Of a stretch of DNA of 64,000 nucleotides, positions 46,300 to 55,634 are shown piece by piece. Where the stretch lies: the NCBI GenBank assembly GCA_013375405.1, contig JABXJU010000001.1, positions 27,020-91,019 of the forward strand, given 5' to 3'. Source of the DNA: Candidatus Helarchaeota archaeon (GTDB lineage: Archaea > Asgardarchaeota > Lokiarchaeia > Helarchaeales > HEL-GB-A). How positions within the stretch are numbered: position 1 is the stretch's first letter; the number at the start of each line of letters is the position of its first letter. A model generated the notes under the pieces. It saw nothing but the letters and a program-made list of their open reading frames with translations. It made no database searches and was not told where the DNA came from. The translations under genes were made by a program, and so were the position numbers.

Positions 46300-46337
46300 T
46301 AATAAATTAAGGAGTGATGCTAAAAAGGGTGAAAAAA

Positions 46338-48281
46338 ATGGAAGAACCCCGCATAGGAATTTTTGTTTGCCGCTGAGGTATCAATATTGCTGGGATAATT
46401 GATGTTCCGAAGTTAGTTGATTACGCAAAGAAGTTAGAGAATGTTGCTGTGGCTGAAGAATATTTATCGATGTGCACTGAACCTGGCGCTGCATTTATTA
46501 TGGAAAAAATCGAAGAAAACAATCTCAACCGTGTAATTGTCGCCGCTTGCTCACCCAAAACGCATGAACCTGTCTTTCATGCTGTTTTAAAAGATGCTGG
46601 GCTACCTCCACGAATGTTAGAATTTGTCAATATCCGGGAGCACTGTTCCTTTGTTCATATGAATGAACCGGAGGCTGCACTTTACCAGGCGAAAAGTTTG
46701 ATTCGTGCTGCGGTGCAACGTGCTTTACACTTAGAAGCTGTTCCCACCAAAACAGTTGATGTAAATCCAGAAGCTTTGGTGGTTGGCGGAGGTATTGCGG
46801 GATTATCCGCTGCCTTAGATTTAGCAAATCAAGGGTTTAAAGTGTACTTGGTAGAAAAAGAACTTACAATCGGTGGACGAATGTCTCAAATGGATCGCAC
46901 TTTTCCTACGGATGACTGTGCTATCTGAATCTTGGGACCTAAAATGCTTGAAGCCGGACGGCATCCGAATATTCAAATTATGAGCTACTGTGAAGTTACA
47001 GAGGTAACAGGATATATAGGAAATTTTAATGTAAAAATCAAACAACACCCACGATATGTAGATGTAAATGTGTGTACAAATTGTGGAATTTGCCGCGAAG
47101 AATGCCCTGTTGTATTACCGAATACCTTTGATATGGGATTTTCTCCTCGAAAAGCGATCGATCTTCCTTTCCCGCAGGCAGTTCCCACCATTTATGCCAT
47201 TGATATGGATACATGCGTGAAATGCTACTATTGTGTTGCTGTCTGTCCTGTTTATTGCATCGATTTTAGTGAAGAACCTACAGAATACAACGTTAACGTG
47301 GGAACAATCATCATTGCAACCGGCTGGGATATTAATGAACCAAAACTGTTGGGTTATGGTGAATATGAAAATGTTATCAATCAACTTCAATTGGAACGGA
47401 TTTTGGCTCCAAATGGCCCGACTCTTGGGCATTTAGTTCGTCCTTCGGATGGAAAACGGCCGAAAAGTGTATTGATGATAAATTGTGCAGGTAGTCGCGA
47501 TATTCATTATCGCGAAAATTGTCCAGGTGTCTGCTGCTTAGTATCCATTAAAAATGCCAAGCTGATCATTTCTGAATATCCAGATGCCGAAGTAATAATC
47601 AGTGCAATAGATATCAGAGCACCAGGAAAAGATTATGAGGAATATTATCGCCGTTCACGTGAGTTCGGAATTAATTACATCAAAGGAATGGTAGGGTCGG
47701 TGGAAGAAGATCCGATAACGAAGAATCTTATATGTACAGTGGAGAATATGCTGTCTGGAGAAGTTAAAGAGATCGAAGTTGAGATGGTCGTGCTATCAAC
47801 AGCACCAATTCCATCTAAAGGCACCGATGAAATCGCTGAAATCATGAGGCTGGAAAAGAGTACGGATGGTTTTCTAAAGGAATATCATGCACGGTTGAAT
47901 CCAATAGATACGAAGACCTTTGGGGTCTATTTAGCTGGGATGTGTCAGGGACCTAAACCCATTGATTATTCAGTAACTCAAGGAAGAGGAGCTGCATCGA
48001 GTGCTTCCATTCCGTTACACGATGGAAAATTTGAGATTGAGTTGATTCGGGCAGTAGCAGATAATGAACGATGTTCTCGTTGTGGTGAGTGTGTTCAAGC
48101 GTGTCCATTTACCGCATTACGCATCGATGAGAACAATATGTTGATTGTCGATGAAATTGCATGTCGTGGCTGTGGTGTTTGTGCAGCCACGTGTAAATCA
48201 AAATCAATTACACTTCGGTATTTCCGTGATATAGCATTTGAGTCTTACATCGATGCCCTCTTAGCACCGATAGAGGATTAA
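46338..48281 (+). CDS. hdrA: HdrA, FAD/Fe-S electron-bifurcating subunit with two selenocysteine codons
   Basis: 647 residues if two in-frame TGA codons (46374-46376, residue 13; 46926-46928, residue 197) are read as selenocysteine. Both replace cysteines conserved in HdrA: C-R-U-G-I-N-I-A-G for the CxCG start and DCAI-U-ILGPKM for DCAxCILxPKM. The whole chain aligns in length and order: N-terminal domain, FAD motif VVGGGIAGLSAA (residues ~149-160), ferredoxin pair CTNCGICREECP and CVKCYYCVAVCP, then the C-terminal pair CSRCGECVQACP and CRGCGVCAATC. ATG 46338 has GGGTGA five bases before it; ATG 46317 (GGAG two bases upstream) is in frame but too close. HdrA splits or joins electrons between a low-potential ferredoxin and higher-potential acceptors. 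MvhD and FrhB/FdhB genes follow. Confidence 0.92.
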
Positions 48282-48298: not shown

Positions 48299-48736
48299 AT
48301 GGCGTTTTTACCAAAAATTGCAGCCTTTTTATGTTGGAAATGAGGGTATGGTGCCGCGGATATGGCTGGTACTATTAGGTCTCAATATCCTGCAAGCTTT
48401 CGCACAATCCGAGTACCTTGCACGGGGCGAGTAAGCACTGATTTGATATTACGAGCTTTGCGAAAAGGTGCAGATGCTGTAGTAATTGTCGGTTGATATG
48501 AAGGTGAATGCGAATACGAAACTGGAAATCTCTTAGCTATAACTAATGTCAAGTACTTGAAACAAATGCTTGACCTGATCGGAATTGGAGCTGACCGGGT
48601 ACAAATGCATTTCTGTTCTTCAGCCGAAGGAGCAAAATTCTCAGAGCTAGTCAAAGAAGTGACGGATCAAATCAGCAAATTGGGACCCAATCCCTTGAAA
48701 TTAAAAGCTCCTGCCGAAGAAGAAGGATCTTCATAG
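48299..48736 (+). CDS. mvhD: MvhD-like electron-transfer subunit with two selenocysteine codons
   Basis: 145 residues if the TGA codons at 48341-48343 (residue 15) and 48494-48496 (residue 66) are read as Sec. The first, FLCWK-U-GYGAAD, lies where MvhD has FxCNWCSYAGAD; the second, VVG-U-YEGECEY, lies where MvhD has GCHPGDCHY. MvhD's [2Fe-2S]-binding site lies in these two motifs plus RVPCTGRV, so Sec replaces two cluster ligands. MvhD bridges HdrA and a hydrogenase or F420/formate partner. AGGA nine bases before ATG 48299. It starts 17 bases after hdrA and precedes a FrhB/FdhB-like gene by 76 bases. Confidence 0.92.
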
Positions 48737-48812
48737 AAAATCTGAGCTATGAAAGGACTGCCCTCCGCAAAGGGTTTCGGCAGTAAATTAAACTTTATAG
48801 GAAGGAAACATA
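48737..48812 (+). other. Intergenic hairpin after mvhD, candidate shared SECIS
   Basis: Perfect 6-bp stem ACTGCC (48757-48762) / GGCAGT (48779-48784) with a 16-base loop containing CCGCAAAGGG; an outer stem CTAT, AAAG (48747-48755) pairs with CTTTATAG (48793-48800) with one bulged G. Located in the 3' UTR of a double-Sec gene, where Lokiarchaeota SECIS elements are known. A strict GAA/A or kink-turn core is not clear, so the assignment is tentative. The stretch also contains the AGGAAGG RBS of the next gene. Confidence 0.45.
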
Positions 48813-49934
48813 TTGAGTGAGAGTTACAAGTTCGACTCAGGAGATATAATCCGAGATCTCTTCAAATGGATGTTAAAAGAAAAGATTGTAGATGCTGTAA
48901 TTGGATTTGAAACTAAAAAAACTCGTTATCAATTAGCACCTGTGGCAATCGAAGACCCAGCGAAAATGACAGACGTTCCCTTAAGCACATACATGGTGTA
49001 CAATTTTGCTCGGATGAATTCCGCTGCAAAATTTTTGCATAAGAAAATGAATGGTGCGAAGGATAAGAGTGTTGCATTAATCGCCAGACCTTGTGATATT
49101 CGGGGTTTGGAGGAAATCTCTAAACGATGGCAAGTTGATCTTGATAATCTCTTTATTATTGGGACCGAATGTTACGGTACATTACCTTTTCAAGACTCTC
49201 CGAAAACATACACTGCACAAGAAATAGATCCAGCGAAAGTTGTGAAGGAAGCAATTTCAGAAGATTCAGTAACTCTATGGTTGGACGGCGGAAAAACCAA
49301 AACTCTTAAATTTGATAAGAAATTCGACCGGTGGGAAAGTTGTAATCGGTGTCCAGATAAAATACCTAAAACTGCTGACTTAACGCTGGCAAATCTTGAA
49401 GGAACATTTATAATAACTACTCAAAGTGAAAGGGGCAAAGACGTATTGAAGAAGGCCCTCGCCGCCAAGGCTATATCACTTCAAAAAGTGGACGATGCTA
49501 CTATTAAAAAGAAGGATACACTCATGCAAAAACTCACTGAAAAGGCCACAGCTCTACGGGAAGCGATTATTTCAGGATTTATGAAGTTATCCCCTGAGGA
49601 CCGATATAAAACAGTCATCGAGAGCTATGAAACGTGTAGACGTTGTGGAGTTTGCACACGCTCCTGTATTGTTTGTTTCTGCAAGGATTGTATCGTTGTT
49701 CAAAAGAAAAAGGAAATTGATCCAGTGCTCTATTGCCTCACTCGGCTAGGCCACATGGGCGACTCATGTGTTCAATGCGGTAAATGTGGCCAAAATTGTC
49801 CCGCGAAGATTCCACTACCTTTTATTCACTTAGTATTCCTACAAGAAATCAAGGACGTCTTTGGATTTGTCCCTGGTAAAAAGGAAGAGGTCCCCCCTCG
49901 ATCCGGCGAAAGCATCAAACAAATCGTCCATTAA
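48813..49934 (+). CDS. FrhB/FdhB-like F420-reducing or formate dehydrogenase beta subunit
   Basis: 373 residues. N- and C-terminal FrhB/FdhB domains with ALIARPCDIRGLEEISKRW and CNRCPDKIPKTADLT, then two [4Fe-4S] motif groups CRRCGVCTRSCIVCFCKDC and CVQCGKCGQNCPAKI. FrhB/FdhB proteins carry FAD and pass electrons between F420 or formate dehydrogenase and Fe-S partners. Directly behind hdrA-mvhD, it should be their third electron-transfer module. TTG start at 48813 with AGGAAGG seven bases upstream. No catalytic hydrogenase or formate dehydrogenase subunit is nearby, so F420H2 or an outside partner is possible. Confidence 0.87.
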   Translation: MSESYKFDSGDIIRDLFKWMLKEKIVDAVIGFETKKTRYQLAPVAIEDPAKMTDVPLSTYMVYNFARMNSAAKFLHKKMNGAKDKSVALIARPCDIRGLEEISKRWQVDLDNLFIIGTECYGTLPFQDSPKTYTAQEIDPAKVVKEAISEDSVTLWLDGGKTKTLKFDKKFDRWESCNRCPDKIPKTADLTLANLEGTFIITTQSERGKDVLKKALAAKAISLQKVDDATIKKKDTLMQKLTEKATALREAIISGFMKLSPEDRYKTVIESYETCRRCGVCTRSCIVCFCKDCIVVQKKKEIDPVLYCLTRLGHMGDSCVQCGKCGQNCPAKIPLPFIHLVFLQEIKDVFGFVPGKKEEVPPRSGESIKQIVH

Positions 49935-50568: not shown

Positions 50569-51687
50569 TTATTCTAGAATTTTTTTCAACGATTCGCCTG
50601 GATGGGCGAAGACTAAGGTATTTTCAGGAAGAAAAGAAACCCAAACTGTCTCATTTTCATTTAATAGATTTTCTGGATCGTAAGGTTGAATAACAACCAT
50701 CAATTTCCCTTCAGTAATTTCAACTTCATATCGTATAAATCCATGGATAAATTGTTGTCGAATGATCTTTGCCTTAAAGTTATTACCCTCGGGCTTTTCC
50801 TGCTTTTGAATAGTTATGTCGTTTGCTCGAATTGCGACAACCACTCGCGTCCCTTTGGAATATGAAAGATCACTCACATATATCGAGCCATCTTGTAACT
50901 CAATGAGAGTATGAGTATCATCCAACTCGACTATTTTGCCTTCTAAGAAGTTCGATTTTGAGAGAAAATTACACACTTCAATGGAATTTGGATTATTATA
51001 TAACTCTTCGGGGGTTCCCATCTGAATAATATCTCCAAAGAATAACACCGCAATATAATCAGAAACCATCAAAGCTTCTTCAACATCTTGGGTTACATGA
51101 ATAACAGTCAAATCACCGATAGATTTAACCATATGCACAAGCTCTTTACGAAGATTAAGACGAATTTTTGCATCTAATGCTCCAAGGGGTTCATCCAATA
51201 ATATTAATTTCGATCCTGTCATTAATGCACGGGCAAGTGCTACGCGTTGTTTCATTCCACCACTCATAACGCCAGGCAAATCATCCGCCCGGTTTGATAG
51301 TAGAATTAGCTGAAGCATTTCCTGTGCCGTCTTTTTAGTAAAATCTGATGGTTGGCCTCGTACCCTCGGGCCATAAATTATATTTTCGTAAACTGAAAGG
51401 TGTGGGAAAAGTGCATATGTCATATGCTCAAATAACATCCCAATTCCGCGGTCCTCAGGTAATACGTCATTCATCAGTTTATTTTCAATATAAATTTCAC
51501 CATTATCTGGCTTTTCAAGCCCTGCTAAAAGTTCCAGGAGAGTACTTTTTCCGGAACCTGTCGGCCCACAAATACAAAAATATGAATTATGCGGTATTTT
51601 TAGAGAAATATTCTTTAATACTAACTTGCCTTCATAACTCTTTTCGATATTTCTTAATTCAATATAGGATTTTTCCTTTTCAACCAT
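50569..51687 (-). CDS. ABC importer ATPase B (His-to-Gln switch)
   Basis: 372 residues. Walker A GPTGSGKST, signature VMSGGMKQRVALARAL, Walker B LILLDEPLGALD, but the switch histidine is Gln (HVTQDVEEAL in place of HVTHDxxEA). Canonical Walker motifs and Glu after Walker B are intact. C-terminal TOBE-like regulatory domain from ELQDGSIYVSDLS. Last gene of the operon, 6 bases after ATPase A. With A it forms a heterodimer (see findings). Substrate likely an oxyanion, by permease type. Confidence 0.9.
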   Translation of the reverse strand: MVEKEKSYIELRNIEKSYEGKLVLKNISLKIPHNSYFCICGPTGSGKSTLLELLAGLEKPDNGEIYIENKLMNDVLPEDRGIGMLFEHMTYALFPHLSVYENIIYGPRVRGQPSDFTKKTAQEMLQLILLSNRADDLPGVMSGGMKQRVALARALMTGSKLILLDEPLGALDAKIRLNLRKELVHMVKSIGDLTVIHVTQDVEEALMVSDYIAVLFFGDIIQMGTPEELYNNPNSIEVCNFLSKSNFLEGKIVELDDTHTLIELQDGSIYVSDLSYSKGTRVVVAIRANDITIQKQEKPEGNNFKAKIIRQQFIHGFIRYEVEITEGKLMVVIQPYDPENLLNENETVWVSFLPENTLVFAHPGESLKKILE

Positions 51688-51693
51688 TATGTA

Positions 51694-52803
51694 TTACTCC
51701 AAAGCTAATTCATAATCTAAATCTTTAGGATATTCAAAGCACATAGCATCGCTCTCGTCAAACGAGATGATAATTTGCTCATTAAGGCCTTTTATGTCCT
51801 TGGTAATTTCTCTTGTTAAAACTTCAGCCTCAATTCTATCATTATTTTCCAATCTTAATTGAAATATTGTTTTAGAACCAAGAAAATGTCTTTTAATAAT
51901 TGTAGCATTTAATGTATTTATATCTGGTGATAGTTCACTGGCAATAGAAATCTCGTTTTTGCGAATAGCTAGAACTAAGCGTCTCATTCTATCCCATTTA
52001 TCTATAAGTACTTTAACTTTAGGACCAAAACCTCGCAACCGTAATGTTGAGCTCCCTGTTTCCCGATGATCAACAAAGCATTCAAGGAAATTCGAATTGG
52101 ACAGAAAATTACAAACGAAAATCGAATTAGGTTTATAATAGAGATTCATAGGAGTATCCACTTGATGAATATGTCCTTTTCGCATTATTGCAATTCGATC
52201 TGAGATATTCATTGCTTCAATCTGATCATGTGTCACATGAATTGCTGTTAGCCCTAATTTTTTAACTAATTTCCGCAGTTCATGTTGAAATTCCATCCGA
52301 ATTTTTAAATCCAGGGCACCAAGCGGTTCGTCTAAAAGAAGCAATTTGGACTCAGTAGCGATTGCACGTGCTATTCCTATCTTCTGGAGTTCAGGTGCAC
52401 TTAAATCCTCAGGAAAATTATTTGCCCGAGGCAACATTCCGATAAGTTTAAGTGCGTTTACGCCAAGTTCTTCCAATTGGCTCTCAGGCTTTCCTTTTAC
52501 ACGTGGAGCATATGTCACATTATCCCAAATATCCATAAAAGGAAAAATCTCAAAGTGTTGGAAGACCATTCCAATATCACGTTCATCTGGAGGTAAATCT
52601 ATTATGTTTTTACCATCAAATAGAATTTCCCCTTCATCTGGCTGGATTAATCCCGCGATAGCTCGCAATGTCGTAGTTTTACCACAACCCGAAGGGCCTA
52701 GCATAGTAAGATATTCTCCATCAGCGATTTCAAGGTTTACTCTATCAATCGCTTGAACTCTTCCATACGCTTTTGAGACATTCTTCAATTCAATATGAGG
52801 CAT
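51694..52803 (-). CDS. ABC importer ATPase A (degenerate signature)
   Basis: 369 residues. Walker A GPSGCGKTT, Q-loop, Walker B LLLLDEPLGALD, H-loop HVTHDQIEAM normal, but the LSGGQ signature reads LSAPE (EDLSAPELQKIGIARAI). C-terminal TOBE-like region (STLRLRGFGPKVKVLID). The defect in the signature and the H-loop change in ATPase B would together leave one normal and one degenerate ATP site. ATG at 52803, 3 bases after the permease stop. Confidence 0.9.
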   Translation of the reverse strand: MPHIELKNVSKAYGRVQAIDRVNLEIADGEYLTMLGPSGCGKTTTLRAIAGLIQPDEGEILFDGKNIIDLPPDERDIGMVFQHFEIFPFMDIWDNVTYAPRVKGKPESQLEELGVNALKLIGMLPRANNFPEDLSAPELQKIGIARAIATESKLLLLDEPLGALDLKIRMEFQHELRKLVKKLGLTAIHVTHDQIEAMNISDRIAIMRKGHIHQVDTPMNLYYKPNSIFVCNFLSNSNFLECFVDHRETGSSTLRLRGFGPKVKVLIDKWDRMRRLVLAIRKNEISIASELSPDINTLNATIIKRHFLGSKTIFQLRLENNDRIEAEVLTREITKDIKGLNEQIIISFDESDAMCFEYPKDLDYELALE

Positions 52804-52806
52804 CTC

Positions 52807-54483
52807 TTATTTAACGACCTCCTTTTCTAGCGTGATTTTTCGCAAGATGAATATTAACATGAAGGAGAAAATAATAATAATGATACTAGCGAAGGATGCA
52901 GCAGCTAATGATTGAGCTTCTACCCAATCTACTATCAATACGGGCACTGTTCGAGCTAATCCCATCACCACTAAAGTCGCTCCAGTTTCTCCTAAACTTC
53001 GTGTAAAAGTTATAATACTCCCTGCTAAAACTCCACGTTTAAGGAGCGGCCAAGTACAGGTACGAAAAACGGTGAAAGAAGGTGCCCCTAAAGTTCTCGC
53101 CGCCTCCTCATATCCAGGATCTAAGCTACTAATAATTGGAATTAAGACCCGCACCATGTAAGGATAACAAAATACAACATGAACTAATACAATCAACCAA
53201 TAACCGGGAGAAAATAAACCATCTGGTCCAAATGGCCCTAATGTCCCCCAAAAGACAAAAACACTAAATCCAAGGGCAGCAGACGGAACAACTAGGGGAA
53301 TATCTATTAGGGTATCAAGTAGTGATTTTATCTTACCCCACTTTCGCCTGACCATGATCAACGCCATAGGAATTCCTAACACAATACAAATCAAAGTCAC
53401 CATTCCAGCAATGGATAGAGAGGACATTAGACTTAGCCAAAAAGCAGCTAATTTATTATCACTCGATAAAAACATCTGGGAATATGCAGCTTCTCCATTA
53501 AATCCAATGAAAACAAAAGTCCATAAGGATGGTAAAATCACGACAATGAGGAAAAAAAGGGCAATTATAGCATTTCGAGATTTTCGAACTATGGGATGGG
53601 ATAGTTTTCGTTCAGCTCGCACAAAAACACGATGTATAGGCAATCCAACTCTCCTCGTTATCAATTTTAATAGAATGAGAAATCCTAACGCTACAAGTAC
53701 TAGTATCATTGTTAAAAAAGCTGCAGGTCCAAATAATCCTAAACTTCGCCATGCGACTATCTGGATCGGCGATGTTTCAGTAACCCCAAAGACGATCATC
53801 GTGGCTCCTGTTTCTCCTAAACTTCGAGTAAAAGCCAATATTGCACCGGCAACTAATCCCTCCTTCATTAAGGGACCTGTTATCGTGCGAAAAACGGTAA
53901 ATTTAGAGGCCCCTAAGCTCTGGGCTGCATGTTCATAAGTACGATCAACTCGCATAATCACTTCTTTTAAATTTCGGACAATATAGGGATATGTAAAGAC
54001 AATATGGACAAGAATAATCATAAGAGGCCCTTCAGAGAAAAGTCCTGCTTCCAATCCAAAAAGACCACCAATACCATATTGAGTCCCCCAGAATAAGTAA
54101 ATTGAAAAGCCTAATGCAGCAGTTGGGACAGCTAGTGGAAGATCAATTAATGTGTCAATATATTTTTTTCCCCTAAAATTATATCTGGCTAAAATTAACG
54201 CCATAGGTAGTCCAATAATTACATCAATAAGTGTTACAATTGCTGCAATTTGAAAAGATCGAAGTAATGCGGCTGTTAAATCAAACCACTGCCCATCGCC
54301 AGTAATAGGATGGTTAAATAGATTGGTAAAAACGCTATTCCATTCAGTTCCAACAAAAGTAAAAATATAGAGAATTGGGACAATAATTATCAAAATAAAG
54401 AAAACTAATGTGAAAGTGTCCCCAAAAATTCTTGCAAATCGAGTGGAGAGTCCTTTCTCAATTTTTCTAATTAATTGCCCCAT
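52807..54483 (-). CDS. Fused double permease of an ABC importer
   Basis: 558 residues, twelve helices in two homologous halves, each with the inner-membrane-component EAA-like loop: AAQSLGASKFTVFRTITGP and AARTLGAPSFTVFRTCTWP, each followed by FTRSLGETGAT. Such two-in-one permeases occur in iron, thiamine and sulfate/molybdate-like importers; GETGA resembles the sulfate/tungstate/molybdate type. 14 bases after the binding-protein gene. The fusion replaces a homodimeric or heterodimeric permease. Confidence 0.9.
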   Translation of the reverse strand: MGQLIRKIEKGLSTRFARIFGDTFTLVFFILIIIVPILYIFTFVGTEWNSVFTNLFNHPITGDGQWFDLTAALLRSFQIAAIVTLIDVIIGLPMALILARYNFRGKKYIDTLIDLPLAVPTAALGFSIYLFWGTQYGIGGLFGLEAGLFSEGPLMIILVHIVFTYPYIVRNLKEVIMRVDRTYEHAAQSLGASKFTVFRTITGPLMKEGLVAGAILAFTRSLGETGATMIVFGVTETSPIQIVAWRSLGLFGPAAFLTMILVLVALGFLILLKLITRRVGLPIHRVFVRAERKLSHPIVRKSRNAIIALFFLIVVILPSLWTFVFIGFNGEAAYSQMFLSSDNKLAAFWLSLMSSLSIAGMVTLICIVLGIPMALIMVRRKWGKIKSLLDTLIDIPLVVPSAALGFSVFVFWGTLGPFGPDGLFSPGYWLIVLVHVVFCYPYMVRVLIPIISSLDPGYEEAARTLGAPSFTVFRTCTWPLLKRGVLAGSIITFTRSLGETGATLVVMGLARTVPVLIVDWVEAQSLAAASFASIIIIIFSFMLIFILRKITLEKEVVK

Positions 54484-54497
54484 ATTTTGTTCAAACC

Positions 54498-55634
54498 TTA
54501 ATCAGCTCTAACGACTAACCACACATCAGGTACATAATCTAAAACCAAGGCATCCTCAGGAACTCCATGTACCATTGTTGGAGGATCATAGGTAACTCCA
54601 TATTGTTGATTGAAATAGTTATTAAAGGTTGCATTATAGGTAGGATTACTTAAAATGGTGGAATTAATTGGGCGAAAACCCCGTGTAAAAGCTTGATTGA
54701 TAGAAGAATTTTCTCCCAAAAATTCCAAAAATCTCTTTGCAACCTGCTTATCGTCTGGAGTAACCCAATCCGCATCTAAAACACAAAATGGGTGACTATT
54801 TAAAAAAAGCCCTTCTTCAGGATAAATTGCAACAGCCTTTTTCTGTAAATTCGGATCTGCGTTTAATTCAATTATAATATTTTCATATACATAAAAAATA
54901 TCATAATCCGTTTTTGCTTTTTCAGCCAAATAACCTGTAGATTTTCCATAATAATCTGCTTCTTTTTCAATTCCCTCCAACCAATCCGCTAGGCCATCAT
55001 CAACATATGATTCATCCGTTAAATTTGCTACCGTAATCTGACTCGCATTATAGAAATCATTTATTGTAGAATTGAAATAGGCGGCTATTTGCATGAGCAT
55101 ACTTGTATATCCGGAATTTGAAAGCCGCGGGTCCGTATGGGCAAATCGAAGGTCACCAGGTAAGATAGTAAAGTTCCGAAGGTCTGAAAATCCTTCTATA
55201 CCAGTATAAGGCGTGTCATTCCAAACTCCAATGACTGTGGGTGAGTAAATAAAAGAATATATATCAGAAGCGTTCATTATACCAGGAATTGATTCATTAG
55301 CAAGAGAAACTTGTAATTGAGAGGCAGGACTCCAGAGGATAGGTTTAATCTCACCGGTTTGCAGGGCTATTACCATTTCGCGGGATCCCATGGATCGAAA
55401 ATTTACCGAAATCGTCCGGTTATATTTTTGGAAATACCATTCCTTAAAAGGAACAACAAGATCTTCGATCCACCCTTTTTTTTCAGAGCTGTAGACCATC
55501 GTGAGGTAATCATCGGTCGGTTTATCGGACCCTATGAGGAATCCAAGAGGAAATCCAACTGAAGCTCCAATAATTAAAAATAGAAGTAATAATCCGCGCC
55601 CTTTCCGTCGTTTATACTCAAAACCGACTTCCAT
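54498..55634 (-). CDS. Solute-binding protein of the ABC importer
   Basis: 378 residues. N-terminal membrane anchor (residues ~14-34, LLLLFLIIGASVGFPLGFLIG) with no lipobox cysteine, then a periplasmic-binding-like domain (VYSSEKKGWIEDLVVPFKEWY, N-glycosylation sequons). It catches the substrate outside and hands it to the permease. The ligand is not clear; the type resembles iron/tungstate/sulfate binders. First protein gene of the operon apart from the small peptide at 55659-55766. Confidence 0.85.
   Translation of the reverse strand: MEVGFEYKRRKGRGLLLLFLIIGASVGFPLGFLIGSDKPTDDYLTMVYSSEKKGWIEDLVVPFKEWYFQKYNRTISVNFRSMGSREMVIALQTGEIKPILWSPASQLQVSLANESIPGIMNASDIYSFIYSPTVIGVWNDTPYTGIEGFSDLRNFTILPGDLRFAHTDPRLSNSGYTSMLMQIAAYFNSTINDFYNASQITVANLTDESYVDDGLADWLEGIEKEADYYGKSTGYLAEKAKTDYDIFYVYENIIIELNADPNLQKKAVAIYPEEGLFLNSHPFCVLDADWVTPDDKQVAKRFLEFLGENSSINQAFTRGFRPINSTILSNPTYNATFNNYFNQQYGVTYDPPTMVHGVPEDALVLDYVPDVWLVVRAD

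Follow-up and report, generated by a model that had tools for sequence, protein, structure and literature searches.

The hdrA gene described here lies at positions 46338–48281 on the forward strand of the window, by which we mean the whole 64-kb stretch of DNA that was analysed. Read through two in-frame UGA codons, it encodes a protein of 647 amino acids and ends with TAA at 48279–48281; a start at 46314 or 46317 is possible as well. The UGA codons occupy residue 13 (46374–46376, in the context C-R-U-G-I-N) and residue 197 (46926–46928, DCAI-U-ILGPKM), and both are predicted to specify selenocysteine (Sec). The initial annotation of this DNA had reported TGA at these two residues, had proposed that reading through both gives a single complete HdrA, and had stated that ordinary HdrA carries cysteine at either position. 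All three statements are borne out: the two codons share one frame that is otherwise open, the product can be aligned over its full length with HdrA chains of solved structure and retains every cluster cysteine, and the HdrA of PDB entry 5odc has Cys in both columns, the alignment with it being free of gaps up to residue 197, so that the numbering of 13 and 197 is identical.

The best family match of the protein is HdrA2 (NF040770; 766 bits, E 3.2e-230, residues 5–642), although the score falls short of the 1100 set as curated cut-off; this model has 777 positions, and its end (648–774) matches the separate VhuD protein. A domain test recovered the N-terminal domain, the FAD domain and two ferredoxin domains, and when the predicted HdrA model was submitted to Foldseek, ranks 1–11 were taken by the A chains of Hdr complexes, with TM scores of 0.55–0.68 on the query. 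In its domains, its cluster cysteines and its numbering at 13 and 197 the protein thus resembles the HdrA of the HdrABC-MvhAGD complex (5odc, from Methanothermococcus), from which it differs in that 5odc has Cys at 13, 46, 71 and 197 alike. Four further cysteine codons of the window bear on what follows: Cys11 (46368–46370), Cys46 (TGC, 46473–46475), Cys71 (TGC, 46548–46550) and Cys194 (46917–46919). The nearest relative is Candidatus Helarchaeota Hel_GB_A, with 88% identity in HdrA, and the window is on this ground probably Helarchaeal. A filter for read-through frames (at least 120 codons, at most three TGAs and little overlap with another ORF, which leaves vhuD outside) listed 21 in the window; 19 of these have TGAs only at or outside ORF ends, and the remaining two are hdrA itself and an antisense frame opposite vhuD.

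Beginning 17 nt 3′ of hdrA on the same strand is vhuD/mvhD (FlpD), at 48299–48736, which encodes 145 amino acids read through two UGA codons (PF02662, E 1.9e-44; 176 bits against NF045873, where the cut-off of 215 is not reached). Codon 15, in a CxxU motif (48341–48343), is TGA in 113 of 114 relatives, and codon 66 (48494–48496) is TGA in 110 of 114 and Cys in the other four; Cys12, Cys41 and Cys71 are invariant wherever the relatives cover them. VhuD is itself, by its sequence, a predicted double-Sec protein; the initial annotation of hdrA mentions neither these two UGA codons nor the three or four that occur in HdrA of some relatives. Next on the forward strand stands a gene for an FrhB/FdhB-like flavoprotein with ferredoxin-type cysteines (48813–49934; PF04432, E 1.2e-20). 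A relative of it occurs downstream of hdrA in all six loci tested, and it is likely to be the third member of the operon. A test of ten ORFs from the 42.3–55.6 kb part of the window found neither HdrB nor HdrC. An ABC transporter set adjoins the operon on the reverse strand (50569–55634), comprising an extracellular solute-binding protein and a pair of ATPases that have TOBE domains; the ORF between them, at 52807–54483, looks permease-like by eye.

A candidate SECIS element was located on the forward strand at 48711–48783, with a GA..GA core. Its lower stem pairs 48711–48718 with 48776–48783, its upper stem pairs 48730–48736 with 48747–48753 and is followed by AAAA at the start of the loop, and an accessory hairpin (48760–48775) sits on the 3′ side between the core and the lower stem. 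The 5′ half overlaps the 3′ end of vhuD, whose stop codon falls within the upper stem; a placement wholly 3′ of the vhuD stop was accordingly rejected. Two related loci (L001 and L054) are arranged as in the window, with the 5′ half of the element inside the end of the vhuD coding sequence and its stop codon, and in all three the core reads AGGA..GGA, not AUGA..GA. The element of Hel_GB_A has the same form, and a C-A mismatch of the window becomes a C-G pair there. Neither Rfam, at gathering thresholds, nor ARAGORN returned anything from the window (no match and no tRNA, respectively), and hence the element had to be found by comparison. The folding energy of the window copy is non-significant when taken alone (z −1.56; 18 of 200 shuffles were as good). 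Across relatives, the hairpin was matched in 89 of 114 vhuD ends, leaving 25 without a match, against 18 of 342 dinucleotide shuffles, and the lower stem with the accessory hairpin reached a score of at least 11 in 78 of 87 cases against 5 of 261 with shuffled flanks, both descriptors having been composed after the sequences had been viewed. The loop of the accessory hairpin often ends in GCA or CAA (as in the vhuD ends of L054, L055, L065 and L067). A SECIS common to hdrA and frhD is already known (PMC11227280, sections 13 and 14), and section 14 of that article makes no mention of an accessory hairpin.

The machinery for Sec insertion was sought in relatives of the window. Hel_GB_A carries tRNA-Sec (67.7 bits), SecS and SelB within 4 kb of one contig, a SelD that itself has one in-frame TGA (Sec-SelD), and a PSTK-like match covering positions 1–244 of 249 but below the curated cut-off. 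Among ten relatives and 14 control genomes, SecS exceeded its cut-off in 10 and 1 respectively, SelB in 8 and 2, and SelD in 9 and 2. PSTK was matched in all ten relatives, none over the cut-off, and one of the 14 controls exceeded it; for tRNA-Sec, 6 of the 15 genomes searched, including a bacterial one, scored above the cut-off, against 5 of 14 controls. The initial annotation had called HdrA a double selenoprotein and had held that a genome lacking tRNA-Sec or SelB would speak against this; both are present in Hel_GB_A. Together with the conservation of the UGA codons, the cysteines of solved homologues and the SECIS common with vhuD, these findings support the prediction that HdrA contains Sec at residues 13 and 197.

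To what extent the two codons are conserved was assessed on three sets of loci. Among 45 GTDB loci, some of them from one and the same genome, both codons are TGA in 37, and two have TGT at 13 with TGA at 197; one further locus spans only 197 (TGA), two span neither site, and three Desulfobacterota loci were matched piecewise. Codon 46 is TGA in six of the 45. A survey of the phylum found an HdrA match in 219 of 227 genomes, and the 150 matches listed, out of a larger number, contain between zero and four TGAs each (none in two of them) and not one TAA or TAG. Retaining tblastn hits that span at least 400 residues and dropping duplicates reduced 183 loci, among them some tRNA loci, to 135 distinct HdrAs; the final 20 listed matches contributed 18 new sequences, for a total of 153 distinct Asgard HdrAs, a non-random sample that consists of the best matches to a Sec-HdrA and is mostly metagenome-assembled.

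In-frame TGAs fall on very few columns. The first 135 HdrAs contain 319, of which 134 lie at 197, 117 at 13, 38 at 71 and 26 at 46, the others being at 296 (three) and 589 (one), both cysteine columns, and no TAA or TAG occurs in their 85,981 aligned codons. The 18 added sequences contain 33 TGAs: 17 at 197, 15 at 13 and one at 71. Among the matches listed, then, 348 of the 352 TGAs in 153 HdrAs are at 13, 46, 71 or 197: site 197 is TGA in 151 of 153, site 13 in 132 of the 150 that cover it (Cys in the other 18), site 71 in 39 of 151 and site 46 in 26 of 151. In the same matches Cys11 (150 of 150) and Cys194 (153 of 153) are never replaced by Sec. The positions of TGA in hdrA are not due to chance, and the HdrA of the window belongs to a group that is widespread among Asgards. 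The exceptional codons belong to L177, L179 and L183, a close group with TGA at 296, and to L147, with TGA at 589; both columns are ferredoxin-domain cysteines, assigned by motif, and Sec may also enter standard ferredoxin-type ligands.

Cysteine and Sec exchange repeatedly at 13, 46 and 71. Written in the order 13/46/71/197, the patterns in the 153 sequences are UCCU (79), UCUU (31), UUCU (19), CCCU (9), UUUU (3), CCUU (3), CUCU (2), CUUU (2) and CCCC (2), with three incomplete. On a FastTree phylogeny of 133 sequences, which includes the window and excludes the 18 later additions and in which 36 of 130 inner branches are unresolved, the minimum number of Cys/Sec changes is 10 at site 13, 9 at site 46, 14 at site 71 and 1 at site 197. 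The UUUU pattern appears in two places on the tree, in L120 and in L176 with L182. The all-Cys HdrAs of the 153 are L175 and L245 only, and no vhuD was detected for L175 within 3.6 kb of sequence from its locus.

Part of this arrangement has precedents. A 2026 review lists HdrA in its table with a CxxU motif and one Sec, and the sections of it considered here describe Sec-HdrAs of Methanococcales, Methanopyrus and some Desulfobacterota in which Sec is at 197 and the protein adjoins, or is fused with, VhuD (PMC13188914). The window shares with these the Sec at 197 and the neighbouring vhuD, and differs from the one-Sec HdrA of that review by the additional Sec at 13, to which Asgard relatives add 46 and 71. 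For the chain of PDB entry 9sfi, the printed alignment shows X at residue 197 and nowhere else. We also examined 48 Desulfobacterota loci (30 loci plus 18 further listed matches with stops, from a survey with a match in 94 of 118 genomes): 26 have TGA at 197, one of which (L246) has TGA at 13 as well, and none has it at 46 or 71. The pair 13 and 197 is therefore not confined to Asgards, and within the loci examined Sec codons at 46 and 71 are seen only in Asgards; L246 is possibly an independent gain in bacteria. Another Desulfobacterota locus, L259, which lacks the N-terminal sites, has TGAs at columns 124 and 137, neither of which is a cysteine column, and we take these as alignment running beyond the start of the gene.

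Another close precedent is the Asgard HdrA-FrhD pair of Huang et al. 2024 (PMC11227280), two adjacent genes with one common eSECIS-like element, of which the window is a member; in the main-text sections of that article covered here, nothing is said of HdrAs with more than one Sec, of cluster ligands or of the accessory hairpin. Several Sec in FrhD/VhuD are mentioned in the review (PMC13188914), and the consulted portions of PMC11227280, PMC9723677, PMC11291895 and PMC13188914 contain no description of several Sec in one HdrA. Among the matches listed in the literature, judged by titles and abstract openings, none concerns multi-Sec HdrA or Sec as a [4Fe-4S] ligand; the article of Mariotti et al. 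2016 on Lokiarchaeota selenoproteins may mention them. Sec at 197 alone is thus known, and what appears to be new is the coincidence of two to four predicted Sec with a single cluster.

The explanation that best accounts for the locus, and one we hold to be probable, is that Sec is inserted at 13 and 197, that one SECIS serves four UGAs, and that U13, the U197 of the partner subunit, Cys46 and Cys71 ligate one [4Fe-4S] cluster. A single eSECIS-like element 3′ of vhuD would drive all four UGAs of hdrA and vhuD, for which the case is strong, and in the dimer of HdrA each N-terminal [4Fe-4S] cluster would be ligated by U13 from one subunit and by U197 from its partner. The structural precedent is explicit about site 197: in the part of PMC9012536 considered here, the N-terminal cluster is bound by cysteines of the N-terminal domain and by Cys197 of the other HdrA, and electrons on their way to ferredoxin cross it. 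That article names the source M. wolfeii, as against M. thermolithotrophicus in the PDB title of 5odc, and the two presumably refer to the same structure. Cys or Sec occupies 26 HdrA columns in at least 90% of the 135 Asgard sequences, and by our own motif assignment 20 of these would belong to five clusters, those of the two ferredoxin domains and that formed by 383/395/399/400; columns 11, 13, 46, 71, 194 and 197 therefore remain for the N-terminal cluster. Sec codons occur in four of these six, at 13, 46, 71 and 197. In an AlphaFold model of moderate quality (mean pLDDT 74, below 50 for residues 177–198, which include U197), the first three strands of the N-terminal domain each end ahead of one of these cysteines: C13, C46 and C71. 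From the alignment and the model together we infer that the three ligands beside 197 are residues 13, 46 and 71, and Cys11, as conserved as column 13, could serve in place of 13, 46 or 71. The initial annotation had placed the effect of double Sec at or near 'the bifurcating flavin or a cluster'; our results suggest that both sites belong to a single one, the N-terminal [4Fe-4S] cluster, to which the other HdrA of the dimer would contribute U197.

With U13, U197, Cys46 and Cys71 as ligands, the cluster of the window would have two selenolates and two thiolates, and those of its relatives from zero to four selenolates. We lean slightly towards the more general statement that the four ligands of this Asgard cluster can each be Cys or Sec, up to the all-Sec set (U13, U46, U71 and U197′) in two places on the tree, a pattern that is represented by three metagenome-assembled sequences. 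The Sec sites of VhuD may likewise be cluster ligands. Judging from gene order and the known complex, electrons would pass from the FrhB-like protein to Sec-VhuD and thence to the ferredoxin domains and FAD of HdrA, and, following the literature, one branch would leave the bifurcating FAD through the N-terminal cluster towards ferredoxin. Selenolates would be expected to alter the potential of the cluster, its lability or stability, and its resistance to damage or its repair, and we make no claim as to the direction of any shift. Since the cluster lies on the low-potential exit to ferredoxin, selenium there would tune its potential, its stability or its repair, together with the joint at which the two halves meet.

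Selenolate on metal has a counterpart in [NiFeSe] hydrogenase and formate dehydrogenase, and some other selenoproteins have been predicted to bind metals and Fe-S clusters through Sec (the relevant sections of PMC13188914). In the hydrogenase and the dehydrogenase a single Sec binds Ni, Mo or W of the active site; in HdrA, by contrast, two to four are proposed on one [4Fe-4S] cluster of electron transfer. If the proposal is true, this is an unusual natural iron-sulfur cluster held by selenium, tuned residue by residue and all-Sec in some relatives. The presence of Sec is usually explained by catalysis; in HdrA it seems to pick out the residues that ligate a single cluster of electron transfer. 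A single family ranging from zero to four Sec offers a testable series in which the number of selenolates could be related to potential, stability and electron bifurcation. Asgard archaea are the nearest prokaryotic kin of eukaryotes, and the site would lie on the low-potential, ferredoxin-reducing branch that is central to their energy conservation.

The chief alternative accepts that Sec is inserted but makes U13 and U197 redox-active, forming selenenylsulfide pairs with Cys11 (CxU) and Cys194 (CxxU), so that they are not ligands or not only ligands. Those two cysteines are indeed never replaced by Sec, and they lie two residues from 13 and three from 197, respectively; the CxxU entry in the review points the same way, and CXXU and UXXC are called redox-active motifs in the portion of PMC11291895 considered here. 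We nevertheless regard it as improbable, for Sec occurs at 46 and 71 in 26 and 39 of 151 sequences without any such partner, the cysteine equivalent to U197 is described as a cluster ligand to the partner subunit (PMC9012536, as above), and Sec codons also appear at 296 and 589, which are ferredoxin-type ligands by motif. Pairing of this kind does not account for 46 and 71. Less probable still is that Sec insertion is inefficient by design, with selenium setting the ratio of full-length HdrA to products ending at 13 or 197, the arrangement being mainly a sensing switch. Several UGAs far 5′ of one SECIS, the first about 2.3 kb upstream of it, would suit such a device, and Methanococcus maripaludis is known to switch its HdrA between a Sec and a Cys isoform in dependence on selenium (PMC11097638), but a switch alone leaves the movement of Sec among four cysteines unexplained.

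Two readings that dispense with Sec altogether can be given practically no credence. That UGA is a true stop and hdrA broken or misassembled finds some colour in the protein collections, where, as the initial annotation had foreseen for naive gene calling, the protein of the window is filed as a fragment of 445 residues (P0001) and several close relatives as fragments of 444–445; it is rejected on two counts: 37 of the 45 GTDB loci carry TGA at 13 as well as at 197, and of the 352 in-frame stops in 153 Asgard HdrAs none is TAA or TAG and none lies off a cysteine column. Reassignment of UGA to Trp (code 4) is rejected as well, for ten ORFs of the window end in TGA, wherever the four columns are not TGA in the 135 sequences they have TGC or TGT and never Trp, and a SECIS and Sec machinery are found in relatives. 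Sequencing error as the source of the hdrA TGAs was rejected along with these two.

What speaks for code 4 is again a feature of the protein collections. Ten of 120 listed proteins were hand-picked for examination, and, one fused HdrA with Cys being omitted from the count, Trp stands at the Sec sites in nine of nine single-HdrA proteins; these entries probably arose when genes for Sec proteins were called under code 4. All nine (P0008, P0011, P0014, P0015, P0018, P0026, P0029, P0052 and P0058) are full-length with Trp at 13 and 197, and some have it at 46 or 71 too. Disruption of HdrA gene calls by 'selenocysteine residues' has been noted in Methanocaldococcus (PMC12054007, in the part considered). 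Because protein collections cut or mistranslate the enzyme in these ways, surveys of Asgard energy metabolism can miss HdrA.
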